Shown here one piece after another: positions 272 through 8,673 of a stretch of DNA of 10,212 bases (position 1 is the stretch's first letter; every line of letters begins with the position of its first letter). The position numbers and the translations under genes are program-made. This stretch comes from Dehalococcoidia bacterium (lineage in GTDB: Bacteria > Chloroflexota > Dehalococcoidia > JACPQF01): contig JAUSEJ010000486.1 in assembly GCA_030650265.1 (NCBI GenBank), positions 1 to 10,212 of the forward strand, given 5' to 3'. The notes below the pieces were generated by a model, which was not told the origin of the DNA, did no database searches, and saw nothing but the letters and a program-made list of their open reading frames with translations.

Positions 272-1390
272 ATGCGGTTGCTGGCTCAAGGTTGGTTGGT
301 CTATGAGCTTACCGACTCGGCATTCTTGCTGGGTCTCAGCAGTTTTGCCCTGCAAATCCCCATATTGCTGCTTGGTCTGGTCGGCGGCTATGCTGCCGAC
401 ACTTTCGACCGGCGCAAACTTACGCTAGTCGCCGTTTCACTCTCCGCTTTCTCTGTACTCTTGGTCGCCGTCCTCACCTCCACCGGCCATATCAACGTCT
501 GGCTGATTATCGCCATCTCTGTGCTGAGCGGCGTGGCGCAGGCGTTCGAGATGCCTGTTCGCCAATCTACAGCACCTATGCTTGTGCCACAGGAGCATCT
601 GATGAATGCCATTGCCCTCAACGCCTCTGCCTGGCAGGTCACGCGCGTTTTCGGACCGGCCCTGGCTGGCGCTTTGGTGGCACTCATAGGTGTGGCGGGC
701 TGCCTATATGTGGCGGCCGCAACCTACTTGATTATGATCGGGAACCTTTTGTTGATGCAGCCTCTGCCGGCGCAGACACGAATGAAAGGTTCAATGTTCG
801 ACAGTATTGCCGAGGGAATCTCCTATCTGCGGTCCAGCCCGTCCATCGCTACCCTAATCCTCCTCGAAGGTGCTCCGGCCCTGTTCGCTCTGCCCTATCA
901 GATGCTTATGCCTGTTTTCGCTCGTGATGTTTTCGGGCGCGGCGCTCTCGAACTGGGCTGGCTTTACTCGGCTGCCGGCATCGGCGCGGCGATAGGGACC
1001 CTAACGGTGGCATCTTTGGGCCACTTCCGGTATCGCGGGTTGTCTTTGCTCTTCGCGGCCATGAGCCTTGGCGTTGCCCTAGTTTTCTTTGGTAACAACA
1101 ACTCGTTTTCTCTGGCCTTGCTCATCATGGTTTTCGTCGGATTCGGACATATGACCTTCCTATCACTAACCAACACCATCGTCCAGAGTGTCACCAAGGA
1201 TGAGTTCAGGGGACGTGTGATGAGCATGTATGCCATGGCTAATACGGGGTTGTCCCCTGTTGGCTATCTGGCTGCCGGCGCTACCGCCGGGATCGTTGGC
1301 GCACCCGCCACTCTGGTCGCCGGGGGCGTCTTGTTGACTCTAATCGCGCTGGGTGTCTTGTTCGGGCGGCCCACAATCCGGAAACTGTAG
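272..1390 (+). CDS. MFS exporter, DHA3/EntS-like, N-terminus lost by frameshift
   Basis: This is an integral-membrane proton-driven exporter of the major facilitator superfamily, of the drug or siderophore efflux type; its substrate cannot be read from sequence. The usual motif A of the loop between helices 2 and 3 is visible as GGYAADTFDRRKL (about residues 38-50). The C-half counterpart, EFRGRVMSMY, is near residue 310. It is clearly related to the two MFS genes at 5939-8673, sharing ARGWLVYxLTDS-like and MPVFARDV-like segments, but is more diverged than they are from each other. Starting at ATG 272 gives 372 residues, cuts into the first membrane helix, and has no ribosome binding site. 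The same frame is open back to 179 and encodes the missing helix start, so 272 is the conceptual start only. The authentic start is probably 136 with a frameshift between. If uncorrected, the product is probably non-functional. Confidence 0.85.
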   Translation: MRLLAQGWLVYELTDSAFLLGLSSFALQIPILLLGLVGGYAADTFDRRKLTLVAVSLSAFSVLLVAVLTSTGHINVWLIIAISVLSGVAQAFEMPVRQSTAPMLVPQEHLMNAIALNASAWQVTRVFGPALAGALVALIGVAGCLYVAAATYLIMIGNLLLMQPLPAQTRMKGSMFDSIAEGISYLRSSPSIATLILLEGAPALFALPYQMLMPVFARDVFGRGALELGWLYSAAGIGAAIGTLTVASLGHFRYRGLSLLFAAMSLGVALVFFGNNNSFSLALLIMVFVGFGHMTFLSLTNTIVQSVTKDEFRGRVMSMYAMANTGLSPVGYLAAGATAGIVGAPATLVAGGVLLTLIALGVLFGRPTIRKL

Positions 1391-1428: not shown

Positions 1429-1437
1429 TGGTATAAT
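1429..1437 (+). promoter_or_regulatory. Extended -10 promoter of the hydrolase-macro gene
   Basis: TGG followed by a perfect TATAAT (1432-1437) forms an extended -10. No convincing -35 is visible at the normal distance, which is common for extended -10 promoters. The predicted start near 1444 gives a leader of about 50 bases containing GAGGAG (1484-1489), 7 bases before the ATG at 1497. The site lies 39 bases after the MFS stop codon and no terminator separates them. Confidence 0.6.
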
Positions 1438-1496: not shown

Positions 1497-2756
1497 ATGG
1501 AAGAGTCCAGCGATCTGGAGCTTCAGATATACGGAGCCTCGACGGAGATGCTGCCGGGCAACACGATGGAGGTTACCATTGAGACTTCCCGGGGCGGCAT
1601 CACGGGTCTTCTCCATCTGGCCGAGGGGGAGACAGGGGCAGCCATATGGCTTGGCGGGGCTTCCGGCGATATGAACGGGCCGGCCGGGGGGCTATTTGCG
1701 GCAATGAGCCGTGACCTCGTCGATCGTGCCATCACTTCTTTTCGCCTGCGCTTTCGGCAACCCGGCGTATTCCAGGAGTGCGTGTTGGATGCTCTCGGAG
1801 GGGTCTCCTTTTTGAAGGCTATGGGAGCAACCAGGATCGCCTTGATTGGCCATTCCTTTGGCGGCACTGTTGCCATATCGGCCGGTGCCTTGAGTGCCAC
1901 CGTGACCGCTGTGGCGGCGCTCAGCAGTCCAAATGCGGGCACCCACCTCGTTTCGGACCTTGCCCCTCGCCCTCTTCTCCTCATCCACGGCGTTGACGAC
2001 TTTAATGTGAGCAAAGCGGCGTCCGAAGAAATCTATGGGCGAGCGGGCGACCCTAAGAAGCTGGTTCTTCTTCCGGGGACCGGGCATGACCTCTCCGAGT
2101 CGAGAGGCGATCTCGATGTACTTCTTCGGGAGTGGCTCACTGCTCAGGTTGGTTCAGCCGGGGCGGAGGTCGTATCGTCCAGAGCCGGGATCGGGACGAG
2201 GATGTATCCGATACTCGTCGAGGCTTCGGGCAGGACGATCGTCAAAGAGGCGATCATCTACAAGGGGGATATCGCCGACGTCGAGGCGGAGGCCATTGTC
2301 TGCCCGGCGAACGACCAGCTTTGGATCGGTGAAGGGGTGGGCAGGAGCATTCTTGCCAGGGGAGGCGAAGAGATATTGGTCCAGGCGCAGTATTATGCCC
2401 CCGCCGAAATTGGTTCAGCCACGGTAGTCGATGGCGGGCGTCTGAGGGCCAAATACGTAATCGTGGCTGTCACCGGGGCGTCTGCCTGGTCTCGTCGCCG
2501 GCCAGACGAAGACTCGGTGCGGCAGGCGACAATAAACTGTCTCCGGCGGGCCGAAGAGCTTCGGCTAAAGTCAATGGCCTTTCCGGCGCTGGGAACGGGC
2601 GCCGGGGGATTTGCCTTCGAGAAAGCGGCGCAAATAATGGTAAAGGAGGTGGTGGAGCACTTGGGGAGGAGCAGCTTCCTCGAAAAAGTGATCTTTGCTG
2701 TTTATAGTTCTGGCGCCTATCAGGCCTTTGCCGGGGAACTCGAGCAGTGCGGGTGA
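1497..2756 (+). CDS. Fused alpha/beta hydrolase and macro domain protein
   Basis: A 419-residue soluble protein with no signal peptide or membrane helix, so cytoplasmic. Residues about 25-215 form a compact alpha/beta hydrolase of the dienelactone-hydrolase-like type. The nucleophile elbow is GHSFGG with Ser120, the acid is probably Asp168 in HGVDDFNV, and the histidine is His197 in GTGHD. After a linker of about 35 residues, residues 252-417 form a macro domain (PF01661 type, binding ADP-ribose or its derivatives). Its marks are GDI (257-259), AIVCPAND (266-273), the GEGVGRSI phosphate loop (278-285), and FPALGTGAGGF (362-372). The first Asn of the usual VNAAN motif is Cys269, and the Asp of the usual GGGVDGAI loop is replaced by Gly, so MacroD-type hydrolysis is doubtful; binding is likely retained. 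A plausible but unproven role is esterase action on an ADP-ribose-linked or acylated substrate. The start is supported by GAGGAG 7 bases upstream. The next gene is 73 bases downstream and may be cotranscribed. Confidence 0.88.
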   Translation: MEESSDLELQIYGASTEMLPGNTMEVTIETSRGGITGLLHLAEGETGAAIWLGGASGDMNGPAGGLFAAMSRDLVDRAITSFRLRFRQPGVFQECVLDALGGVSFLKAMGATRIALIGHSFGGTVAISAGALSATVTAVAALSSPNAGTHLVSDLAPRPLLLIHGVDDFNVSKAASEEIYGRAGDPKKLVLLPGTGHDLSESRGDLDVLLREWLTAQVGSAGAEVVSSRAGIGTRMYPILVEASGRTIVKEAIIYKGDIADVEAEAIVCPANDQLWIGEGVGRSILARGGEEILVQAQYYAPAEIGSATVVDGGRLRAKYVIVAVTGASAWSRRRPDEDSVRQATINCLRRAEELRLKSMAFPALGTGAGGFAFEKAAQIMVKEVVEHLGRSSFLEKVIFAVYSSGAYQAFAGELEQCG

Positions 2757-2829: not shown

Positions 2830-3237
2830 ATGAGTCCAACCACAATGCGATTCATTCTTTCGAGTCTGGTATACCTTTTGTTAGGGGTAGTATTGGGCGT
2901 GCTCTTCCTGGCGTTTCCGAATACACGGGGGCTCAGGGCGGTCCACGTACATCTGAATCTTGTCGGTTTCGTGCTATTCATGATAATGGGCGTGGCCTAT
3001 CACATCTTGCCAAGGTTCAGGGGAAGACCTCTAATCAGCGAGAAGTTGGCCGTGGTCCAATTCTGGCTGGCTGAGGTTGGCCTTGTCGGTCTGCTTGTCT
3101 TCATGGGGATAGACGCCTACCAGTCACAGGTGGCCATTTCTCCCATGGCGATCACTACCGGTCTGGTGGTCTTTGGGACGGCTTTGGTCGTATCAATTGT
3201 TCTATTTGTCTACAATTTGGGGCGCACGCTATATTAG
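2830..3237 (+). CDS. Small heme-copper oxidase subunit I-like (CcoN/NorB-like) membrane protein
   Basis: A 135-residue, very hydrophobic protein with four predicted membrane helices (about residues 8-29, 36-61, 72-95 and 107-131). Helix 2 carries VHVHLNLVG followed by AYHILPRF, with His39, His41 and His58. This pattern occurs in short proteins annotated as cbb3-type oxidase subunit I-like and resembles heme-binding helices of the CcoN/NorB family. Full-length CcoN or NorB subunits have 12 or more helices and about 450 residues or more, so this is either a stand-alone mini-subunit or a small b-heme membrane protein. It cannot be a complete oxidase because the CuB histidine set is absent. GGAGG (2818-2822) lies 7 bases before ATG and makes the start secure. 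It lies 73 bases after the hydrolase-macro gene on the same strand, so it may share its transcript. No c-type heme motif (CxxCH) and no CcoO/CcoP neighbour are present. Confidence 0.7.
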   Translation: MSPTTMRFILSSLVYLLLGVVLGVLFLAFPNTRGLRAVHVHLNLVGFVLFMIMGVAYHILPRFRGRPLISEKLAVVQFWLAEVGLVGLLVFMGIDAYQSQVAISPMAITTGLVVFGTALVVSIVLFVYNLGRTLY

Positions 3238-3413: not shown

Positions 3414-3848
3414 TCGCTTGGAGTTTTTCACGTGGTTGACCCGTGGAGGCGCTGATGCTATTTGGGCTGGTACAGTTCAAGGTTTGGATTCTGAGAAAAG
3501 TGCTTTAGGTTCCTCGATACTAAGACGAAGCTATGGTGGAGGGCGGTTGCAGCGATGAGCAAGTCCATATCGCCGACCTGTTTCCGGACCGGCGCCGGCA
3601 AGCTACATAGATCTTGAACGCATCTGCATCAATATCCTTCCACGAGCCAGCAGCCTTGATTATACCCTCTTTTTTCTCATTGCAATTATGAAACAGCGGT
3701 GACAGGATATGCTGCAAAATGTGGGTGCCACCTGTATTGGGCTGAGTCATCAGTGGAACTGGATGACTATTCAGATATCTGAAGACGCTGCGAACGACCC
3801 TCGACCATTACGGCGATAGCCGGAGATGGGAGGATCAAGGGGATGGCC
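3414..3848. other. Gene-poor stretch with toxin-antitoxin debris
   Basis: No intact gene is supported in these 435 bases. The only recognisable content is the VapC-like remnant on the - strand at about 3458-3636. The segments 3414-3457 and 3640-3848 show no recognisable coding sequence, terminator or repeat. A 36-codon + strand frame at 3709-3819 has neither a ribosome binding site nor a recognisable product. Confidence 0.5.
3458..3636 (-). pseudogene. Remnant of a VapC-type PIN-domain toxin
   Basis: Read on the - strand from 3577 to the TAG at 3458-3460, the sequence encodes VGDMDLLIAATAL, then about 26 more residues including FVLVSRNLKHF. This is the conserved C-terminal third of a VapC PIN ribonuclease, including the third acidic position (GDMD) and the usual SRN/TRN..HF motif. 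Immediately upstream but one frame over (3636-3579) comes DIDADAFKIYVACRRRSGN. That resembles the helix preceding GDxDLLIAA in the same family, so a single-base loss near 3578-3583 explains the break. The earlier part of the domain, with the first catalytic Asp and Glu, is not found. The product cannot be an active nuclease. The same short segment (GSWKDIDAD) also resembles some VapB antitoxin tails, so a VapB-VapC deletion junction is an alternative reading. Confidence 0.68.
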
Positions 3849-4118
3849 CTACGAAGCCTTTTTGGATTCGGACTCTATAGCCTCGTTTATCCACGTTCTC
3901 ATGAGAGTTTGATAGCCTATGCCTTTGTTTCTGGCAATCTGCTTAGCCATGTCAATAGTAGAGGGGTCTAAACGGATGGCTATTTGCTGCTTGCGCGGTC
4001 TTATCATCTCGATCGGCGCGGTCTCTTCGGTCATCTCCTCGAAGTACTCAGTCGAATCGTGGGTCTCGAATAATTCGGCCAGGTCAGGTTCGTTCTTGAA
4101 TTTTGGTAGTCTTGCCAT
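3849..4118 (-). CDS. CopG/BrnA-like ribbon-helix-helix antitoxin, orphan
   Basis: An 89-residue protein of the CopG-antitoxin family (BrnA-like). It has the family opening MARLPKFKNEPDLAELFETH, then the acidic DSTEYFEEMTEET stretch, which in relatives contacts the toxin. Next is a ribbon-helix-helix DNA-binding part with strand QQIAIRLD (44-51), a first helix to about residue 66, a turn at KGIGYQ and a second helix TLMRTWINEAIES. I start it at 4118 rather than 4172: GGAAGG (complement of 4126-4131) sits 7 bases upstream, and family members begin at this MxxLPKFK position. No BrnT-like toxin lies upstream or downstream; the adjacent - strand sequence holds only a VapC remnant. It is probably a free-standing repressor or a relic that neutralises a toxin encoded elsewhere. 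Its likely operator overlaps its own promoter (4180-4198). Confidence 0.82.
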   Translation of the reverse strand: MARLPKFKNEPDLAELFETHDSTEYFEEMTEETAPIEMIRPRKQQIAIRLDPSTIDMAKQIARNKGIGYQTLMRTWINEAIESESKKAS

Positions 4119-4179
4119 CTTTAAACCTTCCAAGTCGGCCAAACGAAGCCACGAATTTGCGAAGCGTTTCATCCCTACT

Positions 4180-5938: not shown

Positions 5939-7198
5939 TCAGGAGAGGCGTCTCAGTGATGGCTTGGCTATCGCTATGCCAAGAGCGAGAAGGAAGCAGG
6001 CCCCGCCCATCAGCCCAATGGTGATAGGTGCGCCGATGAAGGTTGTTAGAAAACCGGCCAAGGTCGTACCAAGAGGTCCCAAACCCCGGTCGAGGAGAAA
6101 GATGCTGAAGACGCGGCCACGAAGCTCGTCTGGGGTGTTGGTTTGGAGCAGGGTAGTGTTGATGGCTTGAAAGCCCGACTGGGCGGTGCCAACTGCCACC
6201 AGGATGAGGACGGAGATCACCATCCAATGCGATAGGGTAAAAGCGACTAGAGTGAGGCCAAACAAGCCGACGCCGACGAGCAGCAGCAGGCCTTTTCTCC
6301 GGAAACCGCTCAACGAGGCGATCAGCGTCGAACCAACGAAGGCCCCGATTCCGGGGGCGGACATCAGAATGCCCAATCCTTCCGGCCCCATGTTTAGTAC
6401 ATCCTTGGCGAAGACCGGCATCATTGATTGATACGGGTTCGCTAGCATCACGGGAACCAGGGCGAGAACCAGCAAGGCGAGAATCGTTCCGTTGGAGCGG
6501 ACATAAGCGAGGCCCTCTTTCAGGTCGAAGAACATGGTCGACTTACGGGGTGGACTGGTCGACGGCGGAATTTTGACGGAGAAACTCAGAACGCTAGCCC
6601 ACAAGAGGAGGACAGCCTGTGCGTAGTAGGTTCCCCCCATTCCGACAATGCCCACCAGGAAGCCGGCCAACGCCGGGCCGGCGCTCCACGTGACATTCAT
6701 GGCCGCCTGATTCAGGGCAATGGCGTTCATCAAGTGTCTTTTGCTGACGAGATTTGGTATCATCGCCTGCCTGGCGGGTTGCTGGAAAGCCATGACAACG
6801 CCGGTAAGCAGGGCGGTGGCGAACACGTGCCACACCTGAAGCGTTTCTGTCACAATGAGAGTGGCAAGAATCAAGACCAAAACCATGTTTGCCAGCAGTG
6901 AGGCGACTAAGAGCTTTCGTCGATCCAGACGGTCGGCCAGTACGCCCCCGAAGATGCCGAAGAAAAGCATGGGGGCCGCACGCACGGCGAAGACCAAACC
7001 CAGCATTAAAGGGGAATCGGTCAGTTGGTAGACTAGCCAACCTCGAGCGACAATTTCCATCCACTGAGCGCCCGAGTTGCCCATCTGCCCCAGCCACAAC
7101 CGGCGAAAGTTGGGGTATTGAAGGGAACTCAGCGTCTCGCTAAAGTTAAAGCGAGACGCTGAGGGCTCGACCTCTGTTTTCCGATCGCCTGTATCCAC
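5939..7198 (-). CDS. MFS exporter, DHA3/EntS-like, tandem copy A
   Basis: A 419-residue, 12-helix major facilitator exporter in the inner membrane, of the drug or siderophore efflux type; the substrate is unknown. Motif A is GVLADRLDRRK (85-95), and the C-half counterpart is DELRGRVFSIF followed by LDRGLGPLGT. The start is GTG at 7198. The leader carries a GGGAG and an AGGA upstream, and the 35 bases around and upstream of the start (7191-7225) are identical to those of copy B, so this start is conserved. It aligns without gaps along its whole length to copy B, with about three quarters of residues the same by eye. The C-terminal 60 residues are nearly identical. The greatest differences lie in the N-terminal 25 residues and in helices around residues 150-185 and 290-345, where substrate specificity may have diverged. 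It has its own promoter (7292-7320). Confidence 0.93.
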   Translation of the reverse strand: MDTGDRKTEVEPSASRFNFSETLSSLQYPNFRRLWLGQMGNSGAQWMEIVARGWLVYQLTDSPLMLGLVFAVRAAPMLFFGIFGGVLADRLDRRKLLVASLLANMVLVLILATLIVTETLQVWHVFATALLTGVVMAFQQPARQAMIPNLVSKRHLMNAIALNQAAMNVTWSAGPALAGFLVGIVGMGGTYYAQAVLLLWASVLSFSVKIPPSTSPPRKSTMFFDLKEGLAYVRSNGTILALLVLALVPVMLANPYQSMMPVFAKDVLNMGPEGLGILMSAPGIGAFVGSTLIASLSGFRRKGLLLLVGVGLFGLTLVAFTLSHWMVISVLILVAVGTAQSGFQAINTTLLQTNTPDELRGRVFSIFLLDRGLGPLGTTLAGFLTTFIGAPITIGLMGGACFLLALGIAIAKPSLRRLS

Positions 7199-7413: not shown

Positions 7414-8673
7414 TCAGGACAAACGTCGCAGCGAAGGTTTGGCAATTGCTATGCCGAGGGCGAGAAGAAAGCAGGCCCCGCCCATCAACCCGATGGTCAT
7501 GGGCGCACCAATGAAGGTCGTTAGGAAACCGGCCATGGTGGTACCAAGAGGTCCCAAACCCCGGTCGAGGAGAAAGATGCTGAAGACGCGGCCACGAAGC
7601 TCTTCGGGGGTGTGGGTTTGGAGCAGAATGTTGTTGATGGACATAAAGCTGGAATTGGCGAATCCAACGCCTACCATGATGAGGACGGAGACGACTACCC
7701 AATGTGACAACGAGAAAGCGACGAGAGTGAAACCAAACCATCCGGCGAGGACGAGCAGAAGCAAGCCTTTTCTCTGGAATCCGCTCAATGAGGCGATCAG
7801 TATTGCCCCGACCAAAGCCCCGATACCGGGGGCGGACATCAGAATGCCCAATCCTTCCGGCCCGATGTTCAATACATCCTTGGCGAAGACCGGCATCATC
7901 GACTGGTAGGGCTGTCCGAGCACAGCGGGAAGGAGGGCGAGGACCAGCAAAGTGAGGATTAGTTCGTTGGAGCGAACGTATGCGAGGCCCTCTTTCAAGT
8001 CGAACAACATTGACGATTTACGGGGTGGAAGGGTCGATGGCGGAATCTTAATGGAGTAGGTTAGCATGCTAGCCCACAAAAGGAGAGCAGCCTGCACGAA
8101 GTAGGCGCCCCCCATTCCCACAGTGGCCACCAGGACACCCGCAATAGCCGGGCCAACGCTACGCGTAATTTGATTCGCTGCCGAATGTAGAGCGATTGCG
8201 TTCATCAAGTCGCCTTTGCCCACGAGTGTAGGGAGTAACGACTGTCTTGCTGGCTGCTGGAAAGACATGACCACACCCGTGAGCAGGGCTGTGACAAATA
8301 CGTGCCACACCTGAACTGTGTCGGTCACAATTAGGACGGCGAGAATGACGACCAGAACCATGTTTGCCAGTTGGGAGGCAATGAGGAGCTTTCGCCGGTC
8401 GAGGCGATCGGCAAGGACACCGCCGAAGATGCCGAAGACAAGCATGGGGGCTGCGCGCACGGCGCCGACCAAACCCAGCATGAGAGGGGAATCGGTCATC
8501 TGGTAAATCAGCCAGCCTCGGGCGACGACTTCCATCCAATTGGAGCCCCCGGAGCTCATCTGTCCCAGCCACAACCGGCGATAGTTGGGGTACTGAAGGG
8601 ATCTCAGCGTCTGGCTAAAGTCAATGCGAGATCCCGAGCCCTTGACCTCTGCTTCCCGATTGCCCGTATCCAC
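7414..8673 (-). CDS. MFS exporter, DHA3/EntS-like, tandem copy B
   Basis: A 419-residue, 12-helix major facilitator exporter, paralogue of the gene downstream. Motif A is GVLADRLDRRK (85-95), and the C-half counterpart is EELRGRVFSIF followed by LDRGLGPLGT. The start is GTG at 8673, chosen because it and the preceding 27 bases are identical to copy A. All helices and loops are intact, so both copies look functional. About 215 bases separate its stop from the copy A start, and that gap includes the copy A promoter, so the two are probably transcribed separately as well as by read-through. Upstream lies the polyferredoxin on the same strand, whose stop codon is only 9 bases from the -35 box of this gene's promoter. 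Whether the transporter is functionally linked to the redox protein is unknown. Confidence 0.93.
   Translation of the reverse strand: MDTGNREAEVKGSGSRIDFSQTLRSLQYPNYRRLWLGQMSSGGSNWMEVVARGWLIYQMTDSPLMLGLVGAVRAAPMLVFGIFGGVLADRLDRRKLLIASQLANMVLVVILAVLIVTDTVQVWHVFVTALLTGVVMSFQQPARQSLLPTLVGKGDLMNAIALHSAANQITRSVGPAIAGVLVATVGMGGAYFVQAALLLWASMLTYSIKIPPSTLPPRKSSMLFDLKEGLAYVRSNELILTLLVLALLPAVLGQPYQSMMPVFAKDVLNIGPEGLGILMSAPGIGALVGAILIASLSGFQRKGLLLLVLAGWFGFTLVAFSLSHWVVVSVLIMVGVGFANSSFMSINNILLQTHTPEELRGRVFSIFLLDRGLGPLGTTMAGFLTTFIGAPMTIGLMGGACFLLALGIAIAKPSLRRLS

Follow-up and report, generated by a model that had tools for sequence, protein, structure and literature searches.

A rare bacterial fusion of an alpha/beta-hydrolase and a macro domain with repeated loss of the hydrolase serine

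The fusion gene and its neighbors

The window (the whole stretch of Dehalococcoidia DNA analyzed, 10,212 nucleotides) contained an open frame of 419 codons (positions 1497–2756, +) joining an alpha/beta-hydrolase to a macro domain, as originally predicted; its two halves matched Pfam Hydrolase_4 (E = 3.5e-8) and Pfam Macro (residues 269–381, E = 4.4e-23). The lidless alpha/beta-hydrolase domain (1560–2159, +; residues about 22–221) is followed by a short linker (2160–2189, +; residues about 222–231), in which model confidence was below 50 at residues 226–230, and by the macro domain (2190–2753, +; residues about 232–419). The codons of the catalytic triad lie at 1854–1856 (Ser120), 1998–2000 (Asp168), and 2085–2087 (His197), all on the plus strand, and the macro motifs are Asp258, Cys269-Pro-Ala-Asn272, the IGEGV loop (277–281), and FPALGTG (362–368). 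A Shine-Dalgarno-like AGAGGAG (1483–1489, +), read from the sequence and unscored, lies 7 bases 5′ of the ATG. A perfect TATAAT hexamer occurs at 1432–1437 (+), approximately 60 bases 5′ of the ATG; the promoter scan listed no promoter just upstream of the frame, and this hexamer was absent from its list.

The model of the full-length protein showed two domains with high confidence (pLDDT 92, pTM 0.89), and the pTM of 0.89 was alike for a serine-bearing and an alanine-bearing member of the fusion family. The first half had the alpha/beta-hydrolase fold. Residues 232–419 were modeled as a macro fold (macro half of the underlying alignment, 13 sequences), the absence of which would have counted against the original prediction; the macro domain (PF01661) scored above the profile cut-off, and the model agreed with PDB 2dx6 at 1.4 Å and 34% identity. 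The high pTM suggests, but falls short of proving, a fixed placement of the two domains relative to each other. A cap-like docking signal was also considered, with 6 of 13 fusion-specific residues lying at the active-site rim vs. 49 of 215 positions (P = 0.048), but it was not counted, the rim having been chosen post hoc with the positions already known and the fusions being kin.

Directly downstream of the fusion, positions 2830–3237 (+) encode a 135-residue membrane protein whose match to the COX1 profile (36.3 bits) is limited to the profile's first third. Three MFS_3 efflux-type transporters are encoded at 272–1390 (+), 5939–7198 (−), and 7414–8673 (−), the latter two in tandem and very alike by eye. 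The frames at 3458–3628 (−) and 3849–4172 (−) comprise an antitoxin gene of the CopG type (PF12441, E = 1.4e-14) and, downstream of that gene, a short frame that resembles the C terminus of a PIN-type toxin; the toxin looks broken.

In related loci (L001, L059/L088 of genome G008, and L002) nuo genes, for NADH dehydrogenase, follow immediately downstream of the fusion; they were recognized by eye in the open frames and, in L088, by a Pfam Oxidored_q6 match. The window shows no nuo gene, so this adjacency is a feature of one clade. Across the loci, no conserved partner gene was found, nor any conserved neighbor backing an NAD-linked role.

Distribution and origin of the fusion

The fusion is a genuine and rare bacterial protein, and its relatives make a Chloroflexota bacterium its likely source. 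The closest relative found (P0002), on another contig, aligned along the entire length (100%) at 60% identity; all fused relatives obtained by protein searches (P0002–P0011, P0014, and P0043) were 31–60% identical to the window protein, and P0014 ended before the macro C-terminus. Genome scans added fusions in G008 (L059) and G002 (L002, truncated by the contig start) and recovered P0006 again in G001. The resulting set comprised 15 fused rows including the window, the 14 others lying in open frames on separate contigs and metagenome-assembled genomes; this ruled out an assembly artifact, and the halves are not always encoded as separate genes, the finding that would have spoken against the original prediction. 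A genome scan with the single fusion sequence found nothing, and an alignment scan then gave the loci. In the class of G001, 337 of 393 genomes, sampled evenly from a larger group, had some match, and both halves were matched only in G001, G008, and G002 among the matches listed. In the phylum set (n = 350 genomes), 132 matched at E = 1e-15, and only G001 had both halves in a single frame. Phage and plasmid carriage was not indicated: 3 of 50,697 phage and 62 of 72,556 plasmid records matched, none covering 80% of the query, and the phage (three) and plasmid (five) matches listed involved the macro half only. The original prediction knew of no such fusion as a characterized enzyme; likewise, no description of an alpha/beta-hydrolase and macro fusion was found in the open-access PMC literature.

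G001, G008, and G002 had one macro match each, which was the fusion itself in G001 and G002, and no near stand-alone copy of the hydrolase was shown in any of the three. G002 also has a second, partial hydrolase match close to the start of a contig (91 residues at 38% identity), perhaps the missing N-terminal part of the L002 fusion.

Chloroflexota also encode both halves in separate genes. Stand-alone proteins of about 230–250 aa from Chloroflexota form the family to which the hydrolase half belongs, and a search with the macro-half HMM found no macro frame in 53 of the 55 loci of the alignment scan, the fusions aside (flanks of up to 8 kb, shorter at contig ends). Genes for GatC, a GatA-like amidase, an aminotransferase, citrate synthase, and tRNA synthetases often occurred near the stand-alone hydrolases; this list was given no weight because gene calls there were overlapping or antisense. 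The nearest relatives of the macro half are stand-alone Chloroflexota macro domains, 18 of which were fetched as loci (39–53% identical). Most of these carry LWM after the motif, some are part of open frames of far greater length (up to 868 aa), and none of the 18 had a hydrolase match in its flanks. A protein search with the macro half (E = 1e-5) had found nothing; since close stand-alone macro domains were later found in genomes, that search was of limited reach. In three of the macro loci, a gene of 152–171 aa with no Pfam match lies directly upstream of the macro gene on the same strand (L125, 3604–4107; L126, 4375–4890; L129, 4421–4879). Separate-gene copies of both halves occurred together in six genomes of the phylum set (G025, G057, G487, G515, G578, and G606; macro domains at least 39% identical); in G025 about 260 kb lay between them, and in the others they were on different contigs.

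The macro tree (45 rows: 15 fusions, 18 near single-domain loci, P0030, P0032, and 10 of 30 MacroD-like loci) had one branch that separated all 15 fusions (support 93/93, not starred). The hydrolase tree (92 rows: 15 fusions, 15 of 20 close stand-alone proteins, and 62 distinct stand-alone locus rows, with P0021, P0026–P0029, rows shorter than 120 aa, and identical rows omitted) showed three changes between fusion and stand-alone labels, all at weakly supported branches. When the fusions were constrained to group together, the best tree was 4.00 log units better (p-AU = 0.577). The fusion probably arose once, a reading compatible with both trees.

Catalytic residues of the two halves

In the window protein, Ser120, Asp168, and His197 were located in their motifs and form the full GxSxG nucleophile, acid, and histidine set, so that the complete triad originally reported was upheld; P0002 has it as well. 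The hydrolase half of the window protein probably works as an esterase or thioesterase. The 14 homologs align over both halves, in line with the original prediction, but conservation of the triad serine did not extend to the family. Column 120 was serine in all 77 stand-alone hydrolase rows examined, whereas the 15 fusions had serine in seven, alanine in six, glycine in one, and glutamine in one (Fisher test, P = 7e-8, kinship ignored; stand-alone rows were taken from the better-scoring matches, and degenerate paralogs may be missed). Asp168 was present in 15/15 fusions and His197 in 13/15, with phenylalanine in P0014 and P0043.

The hydrolase tree called for two or more changes to explain the loss of the serine, and the fusions concerned fall into two kin groups, hence few events. 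On the macro tree, L002 (serine) was placed among the alanine forms and P0007 (glycine) outside them, which leaves the exact number of losses unfixed. Both halves of the alanine-bearing pair L001 and L059 are under purifying selection (Nei-Gojobori; hydrolase half, dN = 0.073, dS = 1.10, dN/dS about 0.07; macro half, dN = 0.075, dS = 1.45, dN/dS about 0.05; dS is near saturation, and the ratios are rough). This constraint implies that the fused protein is useful there without the serine.

In the macro half, the MacroD-type catalytic set (NAAN, a glycine-rich loop, and the loop Asp) is replaced by CPAN, IGEG, and Gly282. Motif alignment confirmed the cysteine and glycine described originally: Cys269 takes the place of the first NAAN Asn and Gly282 that of the loop Asp; that description is refined by the retention of the second Asn (Asn272) and by a further replacement it did not mention, Glu279. 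By counting along the motif, Glu279 was assigned to G37, Asn272 to N30, and Gly282 to D40 of OiMacroD; Asp258 is also kept. According to passages of PMC5413906, G37 of OiMacroD anchors the 1″ OH, and N30, which binds the distal ribose, binds the 2″ OH together with D40; G37V left Km close to the wild-type value (218 vs. 199 µM) but lowered kcat (0.13 vs. 0.48 per s), and N30A raised Km about threefold. A macroH2A-type reader would keep the binding residues (the adenine Asp and the phosphate loops) without the catalytic set; the window protein retains Asp258 and FPALGTG at the sequence level, and a passage of PMC6397177 describes the macroH2A class as binding without catalysis. With positions 269, 279, and 282 replaced, the macro half is likelier a reader than an eraser, as the original prediction had it, though this falls short of proof, and it probably binds ADP-ribose. 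The loss of macro catalysis is made less certain by the active coronaviral macrodomains, which, in passages of PMC7729036, have Ala at the loop Asp.

Position 269 was Cys in 13 and Ser in two of the 15 fusions, and Cys in 1 of 17 near stand-alone macro domains. Among the same 15 fusions, Pro270 was found in 15, Asp258 in 12, Asn272 in 12, and Asp or Glu at 279 in 10. Asp258 was replaced in P0009, P0010, and P0014, and Asn272 in P0010, P0014, and P0043, so even ADP-ribose binding may not be family-wide. NAAN was kept in 30/30 MacroD-like loci from the class of G001, which had been picked for the best scores among 188 genomes with a macro match and are thus canonical by choice. A relation to the DarG antitoxin or to defense was rejected, its matches being weak (PADLOC DarG, E = 2.9e-4, 18.4 bits; NCBIfam DarG, 16.1 bits vs. 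a cut-off of 250).

Possible function and relation to known systems

We propose that the fusion goes back to a single old event, in Chloroflexota as far as sources are named, in which a small lidless serine hydrolase became linked to a macro domain, and that the macro half would bind an ADP-ribose-type ligand, probably without hydrolyzing it any more. With the two domains in a presumably fixed arrangement, the ligand (free ADP-ribose, O-acetyl-ADP-ribose, or an ADP-ribosylated partner) may steer or gate the hydrolase half; in sister lineages that lost the serine, the same scaffold would serve as a pure reader or scaffold. Taken as a whole, this proposal is tentative, quite possible though short of probable. 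The pattern across the family favors ligand reading with a dispensable esterase, since the repeated loss of the serine suggests that binding rather than cutting may be the purpose of the fusion.

In the original prediction, the macro half would hold the ADP-ribose of an O-acyl-ADP-ribose or ADP-ribosyl ester while Ser120 cleaves the ester. This is not supported for the family at large, since eight of the 15 fusions are without the nucleophile and cannot act in this way; for the window protein it is one possibility, and overall we consider it quite unlikely. The complete triad of the window protein and six other fusions and the binder-like sequence of the macro half agree with it, as does the sirtuin, a possible source of O-acetyl-ADP-ribose, encoded once in each of the three fusion genomes tested (G001, G008, and G002), all without an ADP_ribosyl_GH match. 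Sirtuins were also found in 5/7 other genomes without a fusion and ADP_ribosyl_GH in 4/7, so neither is specially linked to the fusion. G001 and G008 carry the alanine form, with which the mechanism cannot run, and their fusions lack the canonical catalytic set in both halves, which argues against O-acetyl-ADP-ribose esterase activity there by the proposed route. Moreover, the stand-alone relatives keep the triad with no macro frame in the flanks of 53 loci. A plain tether, in which a small-ester hydrolase and an independent ADP-ribose binder share one polypeptide uncoupled, appears somewhat unlikely: the separate genes, both kinds of which occur in six genomes, and the purifying selection on both halves are as it would predict, but the pTM of 0.89 speaks against a flexible tether, and the loss of the serine in the fused form only, among the rows examined, suggests that fusion altered the demands on the hydrolase half.

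That the macro half is catalytic by an unusual route, for example through Cys269 as the reacting residue, is very improbable. The prevalence of cysteine in the fusions as compared with the near stand-alone macro domains points that way, and in passages of PMC7729036 a cysteine that replaces the loop aspartate of togaviral macrodomains is proposed to be catalytic; however, two fusions have serine instead, position 269 is the first Asn of NAAN, unlike the togaviral site, and xPxN also stands there in macroH2A, which is a binder. An assembly artifact or decaying gene, for which no supporting point was found, is scarcely credible given 15 fused rows in open frames on separate contigs and low dN/dS in the one full-length pair measured as well as in two pairs that include the partial L002. 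A receptor of an NAD metabolite, in which the macro domain would form a cap docked over the lidless esterase so that ADP-ribose or O-acetyl-ADP-ribose gates the esterase, with a catalytically dead receptor half in several lineages, is judged unlikely; alpha/beta-hydrolases gave rise to some hormone receptors in much the same way. The single macro match beside a sirtuin in the three fusion genomes is cited for it.

ADP-ribose signaling, of which macro domains are a mark, is poorly understood in environmental bacteria. A likely ADP-ribose reader in one piece with an esterase fold, as in the ligand-reading fusion proposed here, offers a way to ask what bacterial readers control, and the natural serine, alanine, glycine, and glutamine versions a way to ask whether a dead hydrolase can act as the receiving half.

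The stand-alone Chloroflexota hydrolases (for example, P0012–P0025 and most of L003–L055) resemble the hydrolase half in length, in a GHSFGG-type elbow with Asp and His, and in sequence (41–52% identity for P0012, P0013, and P0015–P0025). Unlike the fusions, they are without a macro domain and have the serine in all 77 rows examined; position 60 was Asp in 46/77 of them and Asn in 13/13 fusions with a residue there. The TTHA0132-type stand-alone macro domains (PDB 2dx6 and Chloroflexota loci) mostly have NAAN, with N at 269 in 13/17, whereas the fusions have C or S followed by P. When compared with MacroD-type O-acetyl-ADP-ribose deacetylases (OiMacroD, YmdB; MacroD2), the fusion has the equivalents of the first NAAN Asn, Gly37, and Asp40 replaced. 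The macro domain of macroH2A1.1 has HPTN at the place of CPAN; it is eukaryotic and joined to a histone instead of a hydrolase.
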